From Tubulanus polymorphus (lineage: Eukaryota; Nemertea; Palaeonemertea; Tubulaniformes; Tubulanidae), in the NCBI RefSeq assembly GCF_964204645.1, contig NC_134025.1, positions 24,520,001 through 24,584,000 on the forward strand: a stretch of 64,000 bases of DNA, written 5' to 3'. Each line of letters opens with the position of its first letter. The first letter of the stretch is position 1. The notes beneath the pieces were generated by a model. That model was not told where the DNA came from. It made no database searches and was given only the letters and a program-made list of their open reading frames with translations. The translations under genes and the position numbers were made by a program. Positions 525 through 61,837 of this stretch are shown piece by piece.

Positions 525-3123
525 TGGGATTTATATTCAGGGTTCACTCCCACCTCCCTGAGACGTAAGTCCATACACGGATCAAAATGGGCTTCAGCCT
601 GCTCATAATCTGTAGACGATTTCATAATTTCTTCGTGGGTCAAATTTTGAAATTACGAACGACAAAGTGAATGCTGATTCTGAACGATATCATACGTCAT
701 TCTTTGCGACCGTTGGTCATAGCATGGATGAGCTATAAACTACTAGTTTATACGTCCATGGTCATAGTCAGTTGGGTGATTCCGTAAAACTTGATCACAA
801 AATGGAAAAGCAAGTACTTCAATCGTATTTCGTGGCCTGATAGAAAACAATTTTTGTAGTATTAGAACGAAAATTCTTAGAAAGTGATATTTTTCCGAAA
901 CCTTTTTCAACCGTTTTTCTATCCGCGAACTCTGGTAACAATGGCCAGACTGTAATAAGCTAATGCACGAGGATGAAGATCTCGCCTTTAATATGAACCG
1001 GGAGAATCGGCGAAAAACCAAATAATTCTCTTTGATCTGTGGAATACCGGCGCGGTTTTGATATGGCGGATGCCCTCCAAAGGAATTATGAATTTCCGGT
1101 GCGTAGATTCAGCATTTCAAAGCAGCTTCGGTCGGCCGAATCTCGCGGGTAAATGATTAAAGTCTTCGGATGTTAAGAGAACATCCTGTCGGTGCACGGG
1201 GATAGAGTCGCGTCTAACGACAGCAGATGCGCGTCAGGTTGATCGATTTGATGCAACGGAAGCGGGATGTTTTTCGGACCAAAATGCCAAAATTTTAATG
1301 ATCATCAGCGCGGTTCATGTTGTTTCCTGGATAGTAATTAGTGCGCTGCATCATACGTATCTATTCAGATCGTGTATTTAGATATCATAGAGCTTTTTTG
1401 AAGAATTACTCGCTCAAGATCTGTTATAAACGACTAAAAAGATGTAACGTATTTCCCAAAACGACATATATTTTAACTTAAGCCCTCGATTTTGGCGAGG
1501 CAAATCTATCGACGAATAAACACGTATAAATGATTTTTCGGAATCAACAAACAACACTAAGTGATGTCTGGCCATTATGCCGGTTTTGGCTGCTTTCTTC
1601 AATCTCAATAATTTCATGTAATAATCTTATAAAACATTTTCTATCGATGAATAATGATTATCAACATTATCATTATTAGAAAATGATTACGAAATTTTCG
1701 ATGAAGCGTCAAGATTTTCAAAGAGTAACTCTAGATTTTTAAGTTTCTTTGATTAAGTCAATTTAACAAGAAATGTCATCTTTCGTCATGTTTGATATTT
1801 TGATATGTGTCCGTGGAGCGCTTTTTTTCTTCGTGAAGTCATTCGGTAATTAAATTCATTTGCAAAACAGACGTATAGCCTGACTTCCTGGCCGTTTGAA
1901 CCGTTGAAATTTAAGTTGGCTTCGTTTAAAGAAAAAAATGATAATGAATTTCTTTTACATTGTTTTAGAAAGTTTAGTTCATTTAAACTGCTCGTATGAT
2001 CTCATTAATATTTCCGGAATATTCTAAATGTCTCAAGAATTACTTATTCAACCGTTTTCAGATTTCAAATATATAATAGCGTTACTCCAGTTGAAAACGA
2101 ACACTCGAAAATTGCTCCCAAACTAAGATAGAAAGGATTTTTGAAGGTACGGTTTTCGGAATATTCTTTCTCGGGGGAACAAAGAAATTCGAGTGGAACA
2201 ACGGTCGTTTGAAACCGATACTGAAAACGCTTGATTAGGTGCCGACAATAAAGCCACCACGTGCAGACGACACAGGAAGCGGACATTCCCTTTTGGCGAC
2301 ATCAAACACGTTGTAGTTTGTGCGCTTCAGATCAGGAGATTATCGCGTGCAATTAGTCTTATTAAAGATGGAGATTGTAATTATTTTAGCCCGAAGACGC
2401 GCAAACGGCAAGCAACAGACAACAAGAGCTATCCTGACATAACGACATTCGATATGCCGACAGTAACGAGGCATTTTGGCCGAGTGTAATTTCAAAGTAT
2501 ACGGTTATGTTCTGGATATCGTCATTTTGATCTTAAAATAGGAATTGTCCTTCTTATCTATTTGATTGATAGATTTAATTTGATTTGGTGTCCTTTACCA
2601 GCCCATTACACCTGCCGGGAGCGCTGGATATCATTTGAACTTTAGTGAATGATAATCTGAATAATACGTATATTTCTTCTATCCCTAAAACGGAGCTACA
2701 CCGAATTCGTAATTTCATAATTAGGGGTGTCCGTGTTTTTTTTTTACAACCGAGAATTAGACACTTGGATGAAATCCTTGTACAAATGGGAATTGAACAC
2801 CTGAGATTCGTGTTACTGGGGAGATACCATCGTGATAGACCCAATATGCCAAGAAAACTCGTCAGATAAGAAAACATCAACCATTAATTAAGATCATCTT
2901 TACAGAATATATTTATTGTTTTTTCTTTCTCAAATTCATCAGTGCCATATACAAGATATGTTCGTATACATAAATGGACGCAAAAGGGTTAATTCTCCAT
3001 GAATCACACGCGAATAGTGTTGGTTTTTCTCAAATATTTTTTTACAAGGGGGATGATAGTGGTGAAAATACGGACACATGCAAAAACACGCAATGATTCG
3101 ATATCGGTTAGGAGTTTACAGTT

Positions 3124-3126
<3 letters not shown>

Positions 3127-3156
<30 letters not shown>
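3127..3156. repeat. (TA)n microsatellite
   Basis: A run of about 14-15 TA dinucleotides. Nothing else is evident around it. Confidence 0.9.
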
Positions 3157-3159
<3 letters not shown>

Positions 3160-3434
3160 CTTCAATCCGAAATGCTATTTTAAAAAAGAAGTAGGTGTAA
3201 GCTTTTTATGAAGGGAATGTCACAAGTCAATCAACTAGTACTACTTCGGTGTACAAACGATTCACGTGATATTAATTGACAGCATTTACAACAACACACA
3301 ATAACGTCTAAATCCATTTACATATTTATACTTAGATCAATCATTCAATTAAAATGCATTCGTTTATCTAAAATTATTCACAGTAACAATAAAATCAGCA
3401 GCCCCCCAAAATGTTTTTTTTCTCCTTTTCTCAT

Positions 3435-3460
3435 TTCGTTATATTTGTGGCAACGAGTTC

Positions 3461-3498
<38 letters not shown>

Positions 3499-3524
3499 GA
3501 ACTCGTTGCCACAAATATAACGAA
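3435..3524. repeat. 90-bp perfect palindrome with a (TA)n centre
   Basis: The left arm TTCGTTATATTTGTGGCAAC is repeated exactly in reverse complement at the right end, and the arms continue into a TA-rich centre. The arms outside the TA tract are about 26 bases each. Single strands could form a near-perfect hairpin. It may be a minimal MITE or a cruciform-prone repeat; no protein or RNA gene is apparent. Confidence 0.85.
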
Positions 3525-4185
3525 TTCAATTATGATAGCTGCACTTTCACTTTGGGTTAATTGCATTTAAATTCACAACTCATCTATTTCGTTCGTCGGA
3601 AATCATAGTTTCAAATCTGCTTATCAGTTTTTAAGTGAAAGAAAGGGTTACGGTAAAAAGCAGAGTAATTTTTTCGACGATGAAGTAGATATGGAATAAT
3701 TACAATTCGCATCATCTATTTCAATATGGGGCATTCTTAAACAGAAACTAAGAAATTGGAAATATATACCAAGCAGATCTGAAATTTAAAAACCTAACCT
3801 AGGAGGTAATATCGGATTTAGCTATTTGTGCAGAAGAAAATTGTGGCAAGTTATGAAATACGTTATACACCGATTATTGCATGGATCCCATGGATGATTC
3901 GTGTACGCATTTAAATATATATATATATATCTATCTATACATTGAATAAACATAAATAAAAATCAACAATAATTAATATCAATTTTACAGAATCATCCAG
4001 CATTTATCATGCATTTATCATATTCATCATTTCATTTCGCATTTTTAACATTTTTTTTTGTCCCAATAAAATTTCTCCACAGCCGAAACCTAACATAAGA
4101 ACATAAGTTTATTATGTCTCTACCAATCGCACAAATTAAAACAAGCGTTTTAGGATTTAAATCATGACTGTGGAATTGCTCCACA

Positions 4186-56425: not shown

Positions 56426-56500
56426 GTACGTTTTATTCGCGTAACTCCGTTCAGTTTCAACTCCTCACTCATTCCTCCGAGTGGGGTCTGTCTGCAGAGT

Positions 56501-56529
56501 GCGCAGGGGGCCGCTGCGGCCCCCTGCGC
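56501..56529. repeat. GC-rich hairpin at the element's left end
   Basis: GCGCAGGGGGCCGC and its exact reverse complement GCGGCCCCCTGCGC are separated by one T. This is the only place in the array where the 14-base core motif occurs in both orientations back to back. Otherwise the core is always on the plus strand. Confidence 0.85.
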
Positions 56530-56639
56530 TCAATGGGTGCGCAGGGGGCCGGGTATTGTAAAGTGAGAACTGGTATATGATGCTAGACGAAACGATGATT
56601 TTTTAGCAATAATGCAGAAATTTACAAGTAAAACTTAGT

Positions 56640-57695
56640 AAAACTATTAAAACGCGGCCCCTTGCGCACATATCCAGCAGTAGACAAGTAAAACTATGGT
56701 AAAACTATTAAACCGCGGCCCCCTGCGCACCTATCCAGCAGAAGACAAGTAAAACTATTTACACTATTAAACCGCGGCCCCCTGCGCACCTATCTAGCAG
56801 AAGACAAGTAAAACTTAGTAAAACTATTAGTTCAGAATCAAATAGAAATCTTGCGGCCCCCTGCGCACCTATCTAGCAGAAGACAAGTAAAACTATTAAA
56901 CCGCGGCCCCCTGCGCGCTTATCCAGCAGCAGACAAGTAAAACTATTTACACTATTAAACCGCGGCCCCCTGCGCACCTATCCAGCAGAAGACAAGTAAA
57001 ACTATTTACACTATTAAAACGCGGCCCCCTGCGCACCTATCCAGTAGAAGACAAGTAAAACTTAGTAAAACTATTAGTTCAGAATCAAATAGAAATATAG
57101 CGGCCCCCTGCGCACCTATCTAGCAGAAGACAAGTAAAACTATTTACACTATTAAAACGCGGCCCCCTGCGCACTTATCCAGCAGCAGACAAGTAAAACT
57201 ATTTACACTATTAAAACGCGGCCCCCTGCGCACCTATCCAGCAGAAGACAAGTAAAACTATTAAAACTTTTAAAACGCGGCCCCCTGCGCACTTATCCAG
57301 CAGAAGACAAGTAAAACTTAGTAAAACTATTAAACCGCGGCCCCTTGCGCACATATCCAGCAGTAGACAAGTAAAACTTAGTAAAACTATTAAACCGCGG
57401 CCCCCTGCGCACCTATCCAGCAGAAGACAAGTAAAACTTAGTAAAACTATTAAACCGCGGCCCCTTGCGCACATATCCAGCAGTAGACAAGTAAAACTTA
57501 GTAAAACTATTAAACCGCGGCCCCCTGCGCACCTATCCAGCAGAAGACAAGTAAAACTTAGTAAAACTATTAAACCGCGGCCCCCTGCGCACCTATCCAG
57601 CATAAGACAAGTAAAACTTAGTAAAACTATTAAACCGCGGCCCCCTGCGCACCTATCCAGCAGAAGACAAGTAAAACTTAGTAAAACTATTAAAC
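56640..57695. repeat. Minisatellite array, about 60-bp units with a GCGGCCCCCTGCGC core
   Basis: About 17 tandem units. The typical unit is CGCGGCCCCCTGCGCACCTA, then TCCAGCAGAAGACAAGTAAA, then ACTTAGTAAAACTATTAAAC, giving an exact 60-bp period from about 57,280 on. Variants have TACACTATT in place of TAGTAAAACTATT. A CCCCTTGCGCACATA...CAGTAG variant alternates with the main unit between 57,338 and 57,577, making a 120-bp higher-order repeat. A TTCAGAATCAAATAGAAAT insert recurs at 56,830 and 57,078 about 247 bp apart. The open frame across it on the minus strand is only the translated repeat. Confidence 0.9.
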
Positions 57696-58433
57696 CATGT
57701 CATTTTCTATTATCGTACTGAAACTTCGCTATTCTTTATCTAAGAAACTAACGTCACATGGAATTAGGGGTACAAACTAGGGTTAATACACTGTTACACA
57801 GTGTAAAACAAAGAGATTAATTAAGCTGTGATTAAGATGTGATGCACACTAATATACAGCATGAAGACAGTTACAAACTTAACAAATCTTAATGATGAGA
57901 GCAAACTAGGGCGTAATTATACAATAGTTAAGAATCAAATAGAAATATAGCGGGGCAATTAATCAACAACTTAACAATGAAACAGTAGATCAAAAAGTAA
58001 ATTATGTACCGTATCAAGTAGGTTTAACAGAAATGCAAAGTAATCTATTAGAAACAAGCTTTTTGAAAAACCCTTGGAGTCAATAACGCAGTTTTATATT
58101 TTACAAGACAAGTAAAACTATGGTAAAACTATTAAAATGCGGCCCCCTGCGCACCTATCCAGCAGCAGATAGTAAAACAATGATTTTTCAGATACCTAGG
58201 TGCCCTTATTTTCATAATTAATGAAAAATTTGATTTTTAACAAAGTAGGGACCGGTAAAATTTTGAAATTTTCTGATATAAAGATGCACGCATGAGACCC
58301 AAGAAAACGTGTTTTGGAAGTTTGACTTGCTATTACTTAGAAACTAATAAGGATAATTTAAATCGGTAACAACCATAGAAAACTACATATACATATTGAT
58401 CCTGAAAACTTAAAAAATGTAGATAAAAAATGT
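57696..58433. other. AT-rich spacer inside the composite element
   Basis: Unique-looking sequence with a small hairpin (ACACTGTTACACAGTGT), a third copy of AGAATCAAATAGAAATATAGCGG near 57,935 and one isolated minisatellite unit at 58,115-58,170. No gene was seen. Confidence 0.5.
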
Positions 58434-60207
58434 GTTAGAATAAACCATTTTACAGTTGCTAGCCGCCATTTTGTTAGGGTACTTTTGTCCCGTATTGTTG
58501 GGTCATTTTTTTCTATTTTTTAAAAACTGTCCGTGATGTGTGTTGTATCATATTTCATCTGTCCATGGATGGATTTTGACAACTTCAGCAACATTCAAAC
58601 TGCGTGAATCTCTAGTTTTCAGTTATGTAAAAATAATTTCTCAAATTTACAACAATGCGACATGAGAGCGATATAAAAATCGGTGGTCAGTTTTTGCCGT
58701 GCGCATAGAAATCAAGGGTACTGAACTTTGAAGTTCGTTATTTTCAGAAATAATTTTCTAAAAAATCCTAGCATTTCAAGAACTGTGCGCATAAATGCCC
58801 CCTTTCAGGTGAACTTTGAAATTTTAAGATATCTTGCCTAGTTTTTTTTCTATGGCACTTTAACTGCAGCGCGTGTATTGTCATTCCGAGATTCGGCGCT
58901 GTTTTCTTTGCGTGTATTTCAGTATATGGGTGTTATTTTTTCACTTTTACTACACTTGTCTCTACGGAAAATGGTTTTAATTGTTGGTACGAGTATCAGG
59001 TTTTAATATTACGTCATTTATGCAATATAATAGATCGAAGACATTAGAGATGTTGGAGTTAAAGGGATTTTTTTACCAGTTTTAGCAGCGAGACTGAACG
59101 GCATTTTGATCACGTATTCGAAGTTGCGCGCGGGAAGAGAATATATGGGCCTATATTGAGATGGAAGAAGAAAAGAAATATAACACACAAAATCGAGTAT
59201 GATGACCATTTAAATCAGTAGTCTATCAATAAATTTACATAAAAATCTACTGAAATTAGATGGATGGAGAAGTGGTCAAAAAGCTGGACAAATGGGTTGG
59301 GGCAAATATTCAGCTACTTTCTATGAATACTTTCTATTAAGTACACACAAGATTGATTAGATTGGGAAGAAAATATAGGAAAACGTTTTCTTGCTTTGGT
59401 GGTGACATATCAAGTATCAAGTCCTAATGTCAGACACCGGTGATAAAAAGTAAAAAGTGACATCTACCATCACAAAAACGCAAGAAGTGTGTGGATTGCA
59501 TTTACAACAAAAGAGTGATATTTTGGGTTTTCTTGGGTGCATGTACGTAAGCCTCTGCCTGCTGTAAAAGCGGCTACCAATACAGCCATTACGAACTAGC
59601 GCCGGAGAACGGAATACAGTATTAATGCCGTAATATTAAAACCTGATACTCGTACCAACAATTAAAACCATTTTCCGTAGAGACAAGTGTAGTAAAAATG
59701 AAAAAATAACGCCCATATACTGAAATACACGCAAAGAAAACAGCGCCGAATCTCGGAATGACAATACACGTGCTGCAGTTAAAGTGCCATAGGAAAAAAA
59801 CTAGGCAAGATATCTTAAAATTTCAAAGTTCACCTGAAAGGGGGCATTTATGCGCACAGTTCTTGAAATGCTTGGATTTTTTAGAAAATTATTTCTGAAA
59901 ATAACGAACTTCAAAGTTCAGTACCCTTGATTTCTATGCGCACGAAAAAACTGACCACCGATTTTTATATTGCTCTCATGTCGCATTGTTGTAAATTTGA
60001 GAAATGATTTTTACATAACTGATACTAGAGATTCACGCGGTTTGAATGTTGCTGAAGTTGTCAAAATCCATCCATGGACAGATGAAATATGATACAACAC
60101 GCATCACGGATAGTTTTTAAAAAAGAGAAAAAAATGACCCAACAATACGGGACATAAGTACCCTAACAAAATGGCGGCTAGCAACTGTAAAATGGTTTAT
60201 TACGAAC
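58434..60207. repeat. Large inverted repeat, arms of about 580 bp around a 615-bp loop
   Basis: The left arm (about 58,434-59,013) and right arm (about 59,629-60,207) are near-identical reverse complements; for example GCCGCCATTTTGTTAGGGTA on the left pairs with TACCCTAACAAAATGGCGGC on the right. Mismatches are scattered and few, by eye well above 90 percent identity. The loop (59,014-59,628) shows no gene. A transcript through it would form a long double-stranded RNA hairpin. It could be the core of a foldback-type element. Confidence 0.9.
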
Positions 60208-60354
60208 TTTTGAATAAGATGAGCAATAATCTACGTTGAATTATCGAGAATACGGTATCGATGTTTATACAGAGATATGAACGAAATAAAAAAAAGTAAA
60301 CCAGTGAAAAATATGGAGAAAAAATTCAACAATGCGGACCAAGCGAGTAGACAG

Positions 60355-60478
60355 TTTCAACTATAGTAAAACCATTAAAGCGCGGCCCCCTGCGCACTTA
60401 TCCAGCATAAGATAGTATTCAAACTATAGTAAAACAATTAAAACGCGGCCCCCTGCGCACATATCCAACAAGGTTTTT
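60355..60478. repeat. Two isolated minisatellite units right of the inverted repeat
   Basis: Two units (GCGGCCCCCTGCGCACTTAT and GCGGCCCCCTGCGCACATAT), each preceded by CTATAGTAAAAC(C/A)ATTAAA. They mirror the single unit at 58,139 left of the inverted repeat, in the same orientation. Confidence 0.8.
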
Positions 60479-61149
60479 GGAGAAACTGTATACTAAATAT
60501 TTTATGCTAAATCTTTCTTTTTTCTTATACTTCCTGATCAGATCGATTGAGGATTTCACGGATTGCTTGATAACAATTGTGTGTAAATATTCACAAAAGG
60601 CATACAGTTGATTGAAATAAAACAGCTTACCTGATTTCTCTCTGAGTTTTCCATTTCAAAATCCATTTTCCATCTCGAATCAAATATTCCACAAAAAAAT
60701 CGTGAGCGTGCACGCACGTGAGTGGGAAGTGTGGTGGGTTAGAAGAAATTCACGTTTAAATAACAGGGTGCAGACGGTGGGTGGAGATTGTCCAACGTCT
60801 GTCAATGGCCAGACACACTTCGCTGATCTCAGTGACATCGCGAGTCTGTAGTTAGTGTGTCGGGAATAAACATAGTAAATTAGATAGTGGTGAGGTAGAA
60901 ATTAGCAATCCGAAATTTTAACACCAACATATAGACAGCCATCTTTGGACTAGACTTTTATCTTTTATCTAATGTCAGTAAAATGAAAATTCTACTATGT
61001 AAACGTGTCACAATTAGTGTTTGCGGATTTATTATGAGCTGCAATGAAACTTCGCAACTCCTAATTTAATCCACTAAGGACTTAGTTTAAAACTTAAACG
61101 TGTCACATGATTGTTGTGTAATATGTATATAGAAATGTATAGGCAAAGG
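60479..61149. other. Spacer without recognised features inside the composite element
   Basis: AT-rich sequence with no open frame worth reporting and no minisatellite unit. I see nothing else in it. Confidence 0.5.
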
Positions 61150-61178
61150 CAAAACAAACGCGGCCCCCTGCGCGCCTC

Positions 61179-61214
<36 letters not shown>

Positions 61215-61248
61215 TAGATAAAAATTCACGAGGCCCCCTGCGCGCCTC

Positions 61249-61314
<66 letters not shown>

Positions 61315-61440
61315 TAGATAAAAATTCACGCGGCCCCCTGCGCGCCTCTCCAGCAGCAGCAGCAGCAGCAGCAGCAGATAGATAAAAATTCACGCGGCCC
61401 CCTGCGCGCCTCTCCAGCAGCAGCAGCAGATAGATAAAAA
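61150..61440. repeat. CAG microsatellites nested in minisatellite units
   Basis: Four successive units read CGGCCCCCTGCGCGCCTCTC, then (CAG)n, then ATAGATAAAAATTCACG. The CAG counts are 11 (61,181-61,213), 21 (61,251-61,313), 9 (61,351-61,377) and 5 (61,415-61,429). The flanks correspond to the 60-bp minisatellite unit, whose TCCAGCAGAAGACAAG holds the two CAGs that appear to have expanded. The polyalanine-like open frame on the minus strand is not a gene. Confidence 0.9.
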
Positions 61441-61837
61441 TTCGTAGATTCGGCGGAGTATTTTGATAAATAATATATACTCTGTATACTGTTCTTAGTG
61501 TACCATTTTATGCGCATCTCGATGGTAAAATCATAAACTGGTTGATGGTGGTTATGCATTTGATTAATTGGTAGAAGTAGGAGTAGTTTCATATCGCATA
61601 CTACTATGTATATGTATTGCCGTTTCGTAAATAATATCGTGTGGTTTTCACTTTATTAAAGCGGCCCCCTGCGCGCGGCCTCCTGCGCACGGCCCCGTGC
61701 GCACTCTGCAGTTTGATATGACTCACTCATTCAACAAAATTAATTTACTTCCGCGTTTGAAATTTGTTGATAAAGGGCTGCTCCAACTAAAGTACATACG
61801 CAACACGTCCGGCCAAAAGAAGGTTAGCTCCAAAAAA

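Follow-up and report, generated by a model that had tools for sequence, protein, structure and literature searches.

A 5,246-bp segment at positions 56479 to 61724 of the 64,000-nt stretch of the Tubulanus polymorphus genome analyzed here (the window, to whose whole length our coordinates refer; labels L031 to L099 denote other genomic loci) is, at a probability that we put near 0.97, a genuine, young, nonautonomous DNA transposon with terminal inverted repeats (TIRs). It is one of nine complete copies of a family, designated A, which are found at unrelated sites, have paired inverted ends and 8-bp target-site duplications (TSDs), spread recently, and have no coding capacity of their own. Movement was very probably by cut and paste, carried out by a transposase acting in trans. 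The original prediction for this region had suggested a possible composite element with inverted ends, a 60-bp minisatellite (56624 to 57696), CAG arrays (61181 to 61429), and a giant inverted repeat, all of which are real.

To recover related copies, we searched the whole assembly (267.8 Mb, 77 contigs) with the end motif CTGCAGAGTGCGCA(G/C)GGGG, whose inverted copies at 56492 to 56510 (+) and 61693 to 61711 (-) had been proposed to bound a 5.2-kb segment. Exact matches appeared at 20 places. They fell into inverted pairs whose members are separated by 1.5 to 7.5 kb, always joining one end of a left type (...GCAGGGGG) with one of a right type (...GCACGGGG). Allowing three mismatches added a few diverged single ends and nothing more, and longer end probes recovered the same nine complete copies with 98.6 to 100% identity. 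The search that had been suggested as a check was therefore positive, with exact ends recurring, correctly paired and inverted, across seven large contigs. Alignment of the flanks across copies showed that the true ends lie 13 bp farther out, at 56479 and 61724, with GAGTGGGGTCTGTCTGCAG... and GAGTCATATCAAACTGCAG... as termini. Over ca. 300 terminal bases the mean pairwise divergence was 0.55%, and the spread was therefore recent.

Exact 8-bp TSDs were identified at six of the nine copies (GGTTCAAG, TTATCACT, GTCATTTT, GGCAAACA, ACGAGGAG, and CTTTTTCG), and a seventh had one with a single mismatch (GAATATTT/GAATATTG). In the other two, the duplication is displaced by 4 to 5 bp. Thus, in the window the target repeat ACTCATTC (56467 to 56474 and 61725 to 61732) abuts the right end, while CTCC intervenes before the element on the left, and at L033 we read a similar arrangement, GAGTCGTT versus GAGTCTTT, five bases off. 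Because of these displacements no duplication had been seen in the first reading, a statement that no longer holds. A lone 40-bp family A right end was also found (L042:480-536), bounded on both sides by the exact 8-bp repeat AAAATGAC, as though a single end alone had been inserted.

The left 145 bp and the right terminus are common to all nine copies. Each copy also contains between 10 and 73 cores in motif-bearing units, most of them spaced at 59/60 bp, and each end holds three copies of the family A motif GTGCGCAGGGGGCC within 75 bp. The core GGCCCCCTGCGC was found 25 times in the window element versus none in 100 composition-matched random sequences, with no full match anywhere from element position 1661 to 3904. 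The idea that every repeat class carries this core does not hold for the arms of the giant hairpin, which lack it. The internal segment S1 (57697 to 58105) was found in six copies and S2 (60476 to 61150) in just two, the window copy and L035; CAG-bearing units are present in eight copies. Seven of the eight copies outside the window have a last (CAG) run of 5 or 6 repeats and a preceding run of 6 to 29, and L040 has none. Overall, CAG runs in the family range from 5 to 29 repeats and vary between copies, the one nearest the right end having 5 or 6 in every copy that has one. As originally stated, the window element has no transposase, its long frames stemming only from the array period of 60 and encoding no credible domain. 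Nor is there a transposase gene elsewhere in family A, where the frames are array artifacts together with a long interspersed nuclear element (LINE) nested in L033, the source of the reverse transcriptase there. The nonarray interior of L034 was rejected as a protein because of its stops (28 in one frame), and no Rfam family matched within the element.

The giant hairpin (1.76 kb in total, arms ca. 97% complementary) is an independent dispersed repeat. A genome search with positions 58170 to 59028 gave 40 further places, most of them starting at probe base 270 (window position 58439), and many of these matches were arranged as inverted pairs around a loop of ca. 590 bp; none was in any of the other eight family A copies. 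Seven hairpin copies whose flanks were compared have in common the terminus AATAAACCATTTTACAG, with no obvious TSD. In the window the hairpin sits inside an older repeat, whose relative at L049 represents a hairpin-free site (77% identity). Given this relative and its absence elsewhere in family A, the hairpin inserted into the window copy later and independently. The single core units noted beside its arms do exist, but they lie outside the nested insertion. What had been taken for one entity is an end-bounded element with satellites, present in nine copies, plus a separate repeat that is nested in the window copy alone. The flanks of the hairpin copies on C14 and on C2 (17.69 Mb; L068 to L071) agree but are oppositely oriented, and C14 may therefore be an alternative haplotype or a duplicate of the C2 region.

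A larger sister family, B, was first seen in a search with the terminal core allowing three mismatches, which returned many ends GATTGATGTCTGTCTGCAGAGTT. Its ends (left GATTGATG..., right CATTTAGG...) gave 63 forward and 64 reverse matches, corresponding to about 60 copies, and 11 of the 13 sites tested had exact 8-bp TSDs, with one more showing a single mismatch. Both families share an outer terminal core, TCTGTCTGCAGAGT, whose conservation is highest at the left end. The interior of B holds a 191-bp tandem array, and the B motif ACCTGTCATGTCAGGT is present in three copies at the left end and, at the right, in at least two copies plus a weaker one. The motifs of A and B are unrelated to each other; each array is strongly enriched over chance in the end motif of its own family and lacks that of the other. 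A still more diverged relative was located at the start of L031 and L032. A more diverged relative of the element ends (GAGCCGTCTATCTGCCGAGTGCG...) was also present at L048 and L049, with ca. 75% identity between the two copies.

These features are consistent with a transposase made elsewhere that would recognize the 35-bp imperfect TIRs and insert the element with an 8-bp TSD. Such an enzyme, presumably of the DDE type, would cut at the outer core and bind the motif sets, the end motif just inside that core being a putative, family-specific binding site. The satellites could have arisen as inward expansions of the end motif, by unequal exchange or slippage, with their unit number changing from copy to copy. 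The hairpin repeat entered the window copy afterward. For the arrays themselves, a role as putative transposase-binding sites is about an even bet. That they are neutral slippage products without any part in transposition is nearly as likely, because the motif positions are not specially conserved; this alternative is compatible with a transposon and competes with the binding-site step only. Wide differences in unit number and the homogenization of units favor it, while the presence in two families of unrelated motifs, each array bearing that of its own ends, argues against it, as does the precedent of Galileo (PMC3573991). Families A and B offer a natural replicate for asking if satellites accumulate in transposons because additional binding sites help the elements to move.

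Several observations weigh against the interpretation as a transposon or against parts of it. Neither a transposase nor an autonomous copy was found, the TSD of the window copy is shifted by 4 bp, and a link to promoters (see below) concerns three of the nine family A copies. In addition, array units are homogenized, and conservation of the motif was slightly better than in the rest of the unit in A (0.968 versus 0.913) but not in B (0.907 versus 0.932). Conservation is therefore no proof of motif function, and selection on the motif within arrays was not supported by this comparison.

The genome contains hAT, MULE, and KDZ transposases, and it is possible, although we lean against it, that the element belongs to one of these groups and was mobilized by an enzyme still present. 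Searches of the genome, made for these three groups only (P, Merlin, and others were not searched for), gave no transposase for A or B. The intervals between ends were checked with 100 of the 127 family B ends and, among the matches listed, one of the 79 hAT matches fell inside an A/B interval, with its own end (CAGGGCTGCCAACC...) common to further copies, while none of the 56 MULE matches and no KDZ match did so. Moreover, the A/B ends were not found at three KDZ loci that were read. The terminal consensus of hAT elements is YARNG, which the termini of A (GAGTG/GAGTC) and B (GATTG/CATTT) do not fit at both ends. The hAT at C4:18585610 looked like the partner because of its position between two B ends, but it was rejected: it is bounded by a TIR of its own, and those B ends are without a matching TSD. 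The 17.7-kb C4 interval has no TSD and contains a nested hAT. An 11.4-kb pair on C11 was likewise rejected as an autonomous copy because its interior shows no long frame. The 8-bp TSDs do agree with those made by hAT, Zisupton, and some MULEs (PMC12730594, PMC6446971). Merlin elements have 5'-GG termini and TSDs of 8 to 9 bp (PMC8101967), and a Merlin origin seems unlikely because the A/B termini begin with GA or CA. A multi-exon hAT transposase was recovered at L063:1-3260, with CAGGGCTGCCAACC as its end (reverse complement) and several copies 97 to 100% identical; it directly adjoins another dispersed repeat starting at position 3261.

Derivation from a Polinton/Maverick, with mobilization by its integrase, is highly improbable. 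Right ends adjoin Polinton genes in L041 and L043, and Pox_A32 (A32-like ATPase), DNA_pol_B_2, and a capsid-like protein are found within ca. 20 kb of right ends in L041 and L044. However, near-identical copies of the ATPase number at least 150, versus ca. 14 of these ends in the end search, the L041 right-end piece spans ca. 255 bp and is followed by host satellite before the Polinton genes begin, and Polintons make 6-bp TSDs, against 8 bp here. We therefore rejected the Polinton as an autonomous partner; it is a chance neighbor, hugely amplified, that does not share both ends. Its ATPase gene (L041:4571-5173, plus 149 or more further places; 1,489 first-look candidates) has an open frame in most copies, and a LAGLIDADG-type, intein-like insertion lies within a Polinton DNA polymerase gene (L044:6076-6630). 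Still harder to sustain is the Helitron-like or foldback element first envisaged, with the giant hairpin as an integral part. The inverted repeat inside the window copy would fit it, but none of the other eight copies contains the hairpin, which is dispersed independently with the same arm boundary, and this reading is refuted for the hairpin. The Helitron-like label is wrong, since the TIRs and TSDs are features that Helitrons lack. To the last option, expansion in place of a local satellite from one GC-rich motif, without mobility and with ends and arms occurring nowhere else, we give practically no credence. The variable number of array units would agree with it; nevertheless, it is refuted by the near-identical paired ends with 8-bp TSDs at nine unrelated sites.

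Nonautonomous TIR transposons are an already known type of element, and it is the pairing of end motif and satellite that is instructive here. Galileo (P superfamily, Drosophila) also has subfamilies whose internal tandem repeats vary in number between copies; these repeats hold secondary transposase-binding sites, for which its authors suggest that positive selection for higher affinity is possible (PMC3573991; PMC4079207). However, in Galileo the tandem repeats are contained in long inverted repeats and the TSD is 7 bp, whereas here the TIR is ca. 35 bp, the satellite is outside it, and the TSD is 8 bp. Tetris, a foldback element of Drosophila virilis, is similarly noncoding, with 8- to 10-bp TSDs, an unknown autonomous partner, and internal tandem repeats of ca. 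220 bp that resemble its own TIR (PMC4079207), but these belong to long inverted repeats, one on each side, whereas here there is a single internal array. The MULE-related Rehavkus has a minisatellite close to its 3' terminal repeat (PMC6446971) and differs in its 9-bp TSD and its own transposase. Zisupton/KDZ elements produce 8-bp TSDs (PMC12730594), although none of the A/B ends is present at the KDZ loci that were read here.

Features of the window copy of family A and its nested repeats (window coordinates)
Feature	Position	Strand	Remarks
Complete family A element, nonautonomous	56479-61724	+	End pairing; frames array-derived only
Left copy of duplicated target	56467-56474	.	ACTCATTC; CTCC (56475-56478) between it and the element
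Left TIR	56479-56513	+	GAGTGGGGTCTGTCTGCAGAGTGCGCAGGGGGCCG
Left subterminal motif set (three copies)	56499-56550	.	56499-56512 +, 56518-56531 -, 56537-56550 +; two form a strong hairpin
59/60-bp minisatellite	56624-57696	+	One motif core per unit
Single-copy internal segment S1	57697-58105	+	98-99% identity with five other copies
Single array unit	58106-58169	+	Left of nested repeats
Nested foreign block	58170-60348	.	Older repeat X, split by hairpin repeat; not in the other eight copies
Giant hairpin, independent dispersed repeat	58439-60201	.	Arms 58439-59028/59614-60201; terminus AATAAACCATTTTACAG
Two array units	60349-60475	+	Right of nested block
Internal segment S2	60476-61150	+	Common to L035 only (99.4%)
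Four core units with CAG runs	61155-61440	+	(CAG)11, 21, 9, 5
Right terminal segment	61441-61724	+	Identity 99.3-100% to six other copies and 92.6% to L038; L040 identical over the last 163 bp
Right set of three motif copies	61663-61704	-	Head to tail, 14-bp period
Right TIR	61690-61724	-	GAGTCATATCAAACTGCAGAGTGCGCACGGGGCCG
Right copy of duplicated target	61725-61732	.	ACTCATTC

The reconstructed targets had an information content of 7.71, versus 5.88 ± 0.48 for random genomic sets (maximum 7.45 of 60). At the target border, CCGGGTW, which we take to be the complement of the ETS-type motif WACCCGG(AAGTG), was found in 5 of 13 family B sites, one of them (L086) without an exact TSD. Insertion favors ETS-like motifs and sites near gene starts. 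Among the family B flanks L080 to L099, about one-third of the sites show insertion beside ETS-like WACCCGGAAGTG motifs. A more ambitious proposal is that A and B represent an undescribed superfamily with 8-bp TSDs, in which a common terminal cleavage site would be combined with exchangeable family-specific binding-site modules, ETS-promoter-guided insertion, and transposase-recruiting satellites; we consider this unlikely.

The window element was correctly placed between two MTARC paralogues, with MOSC_N matches on either side. Its left end lies ca. 54 bp upstream of the likely start codon of the nearer, MTARC-like (MOSC_N) gene (start codons were inferred from open frames, not transcripts). 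Another copy, L033, is 23 bp upstream of the likely start codon for a tRNA-methyltransferase-like protein with a TYW2_N_2 domain, and L036 is 105 bp upstream of that of a UCH-domain ubiquitin hydrolase, which illustrates the dispersal of satellites and (CAG)n arrays close to gene promoters.

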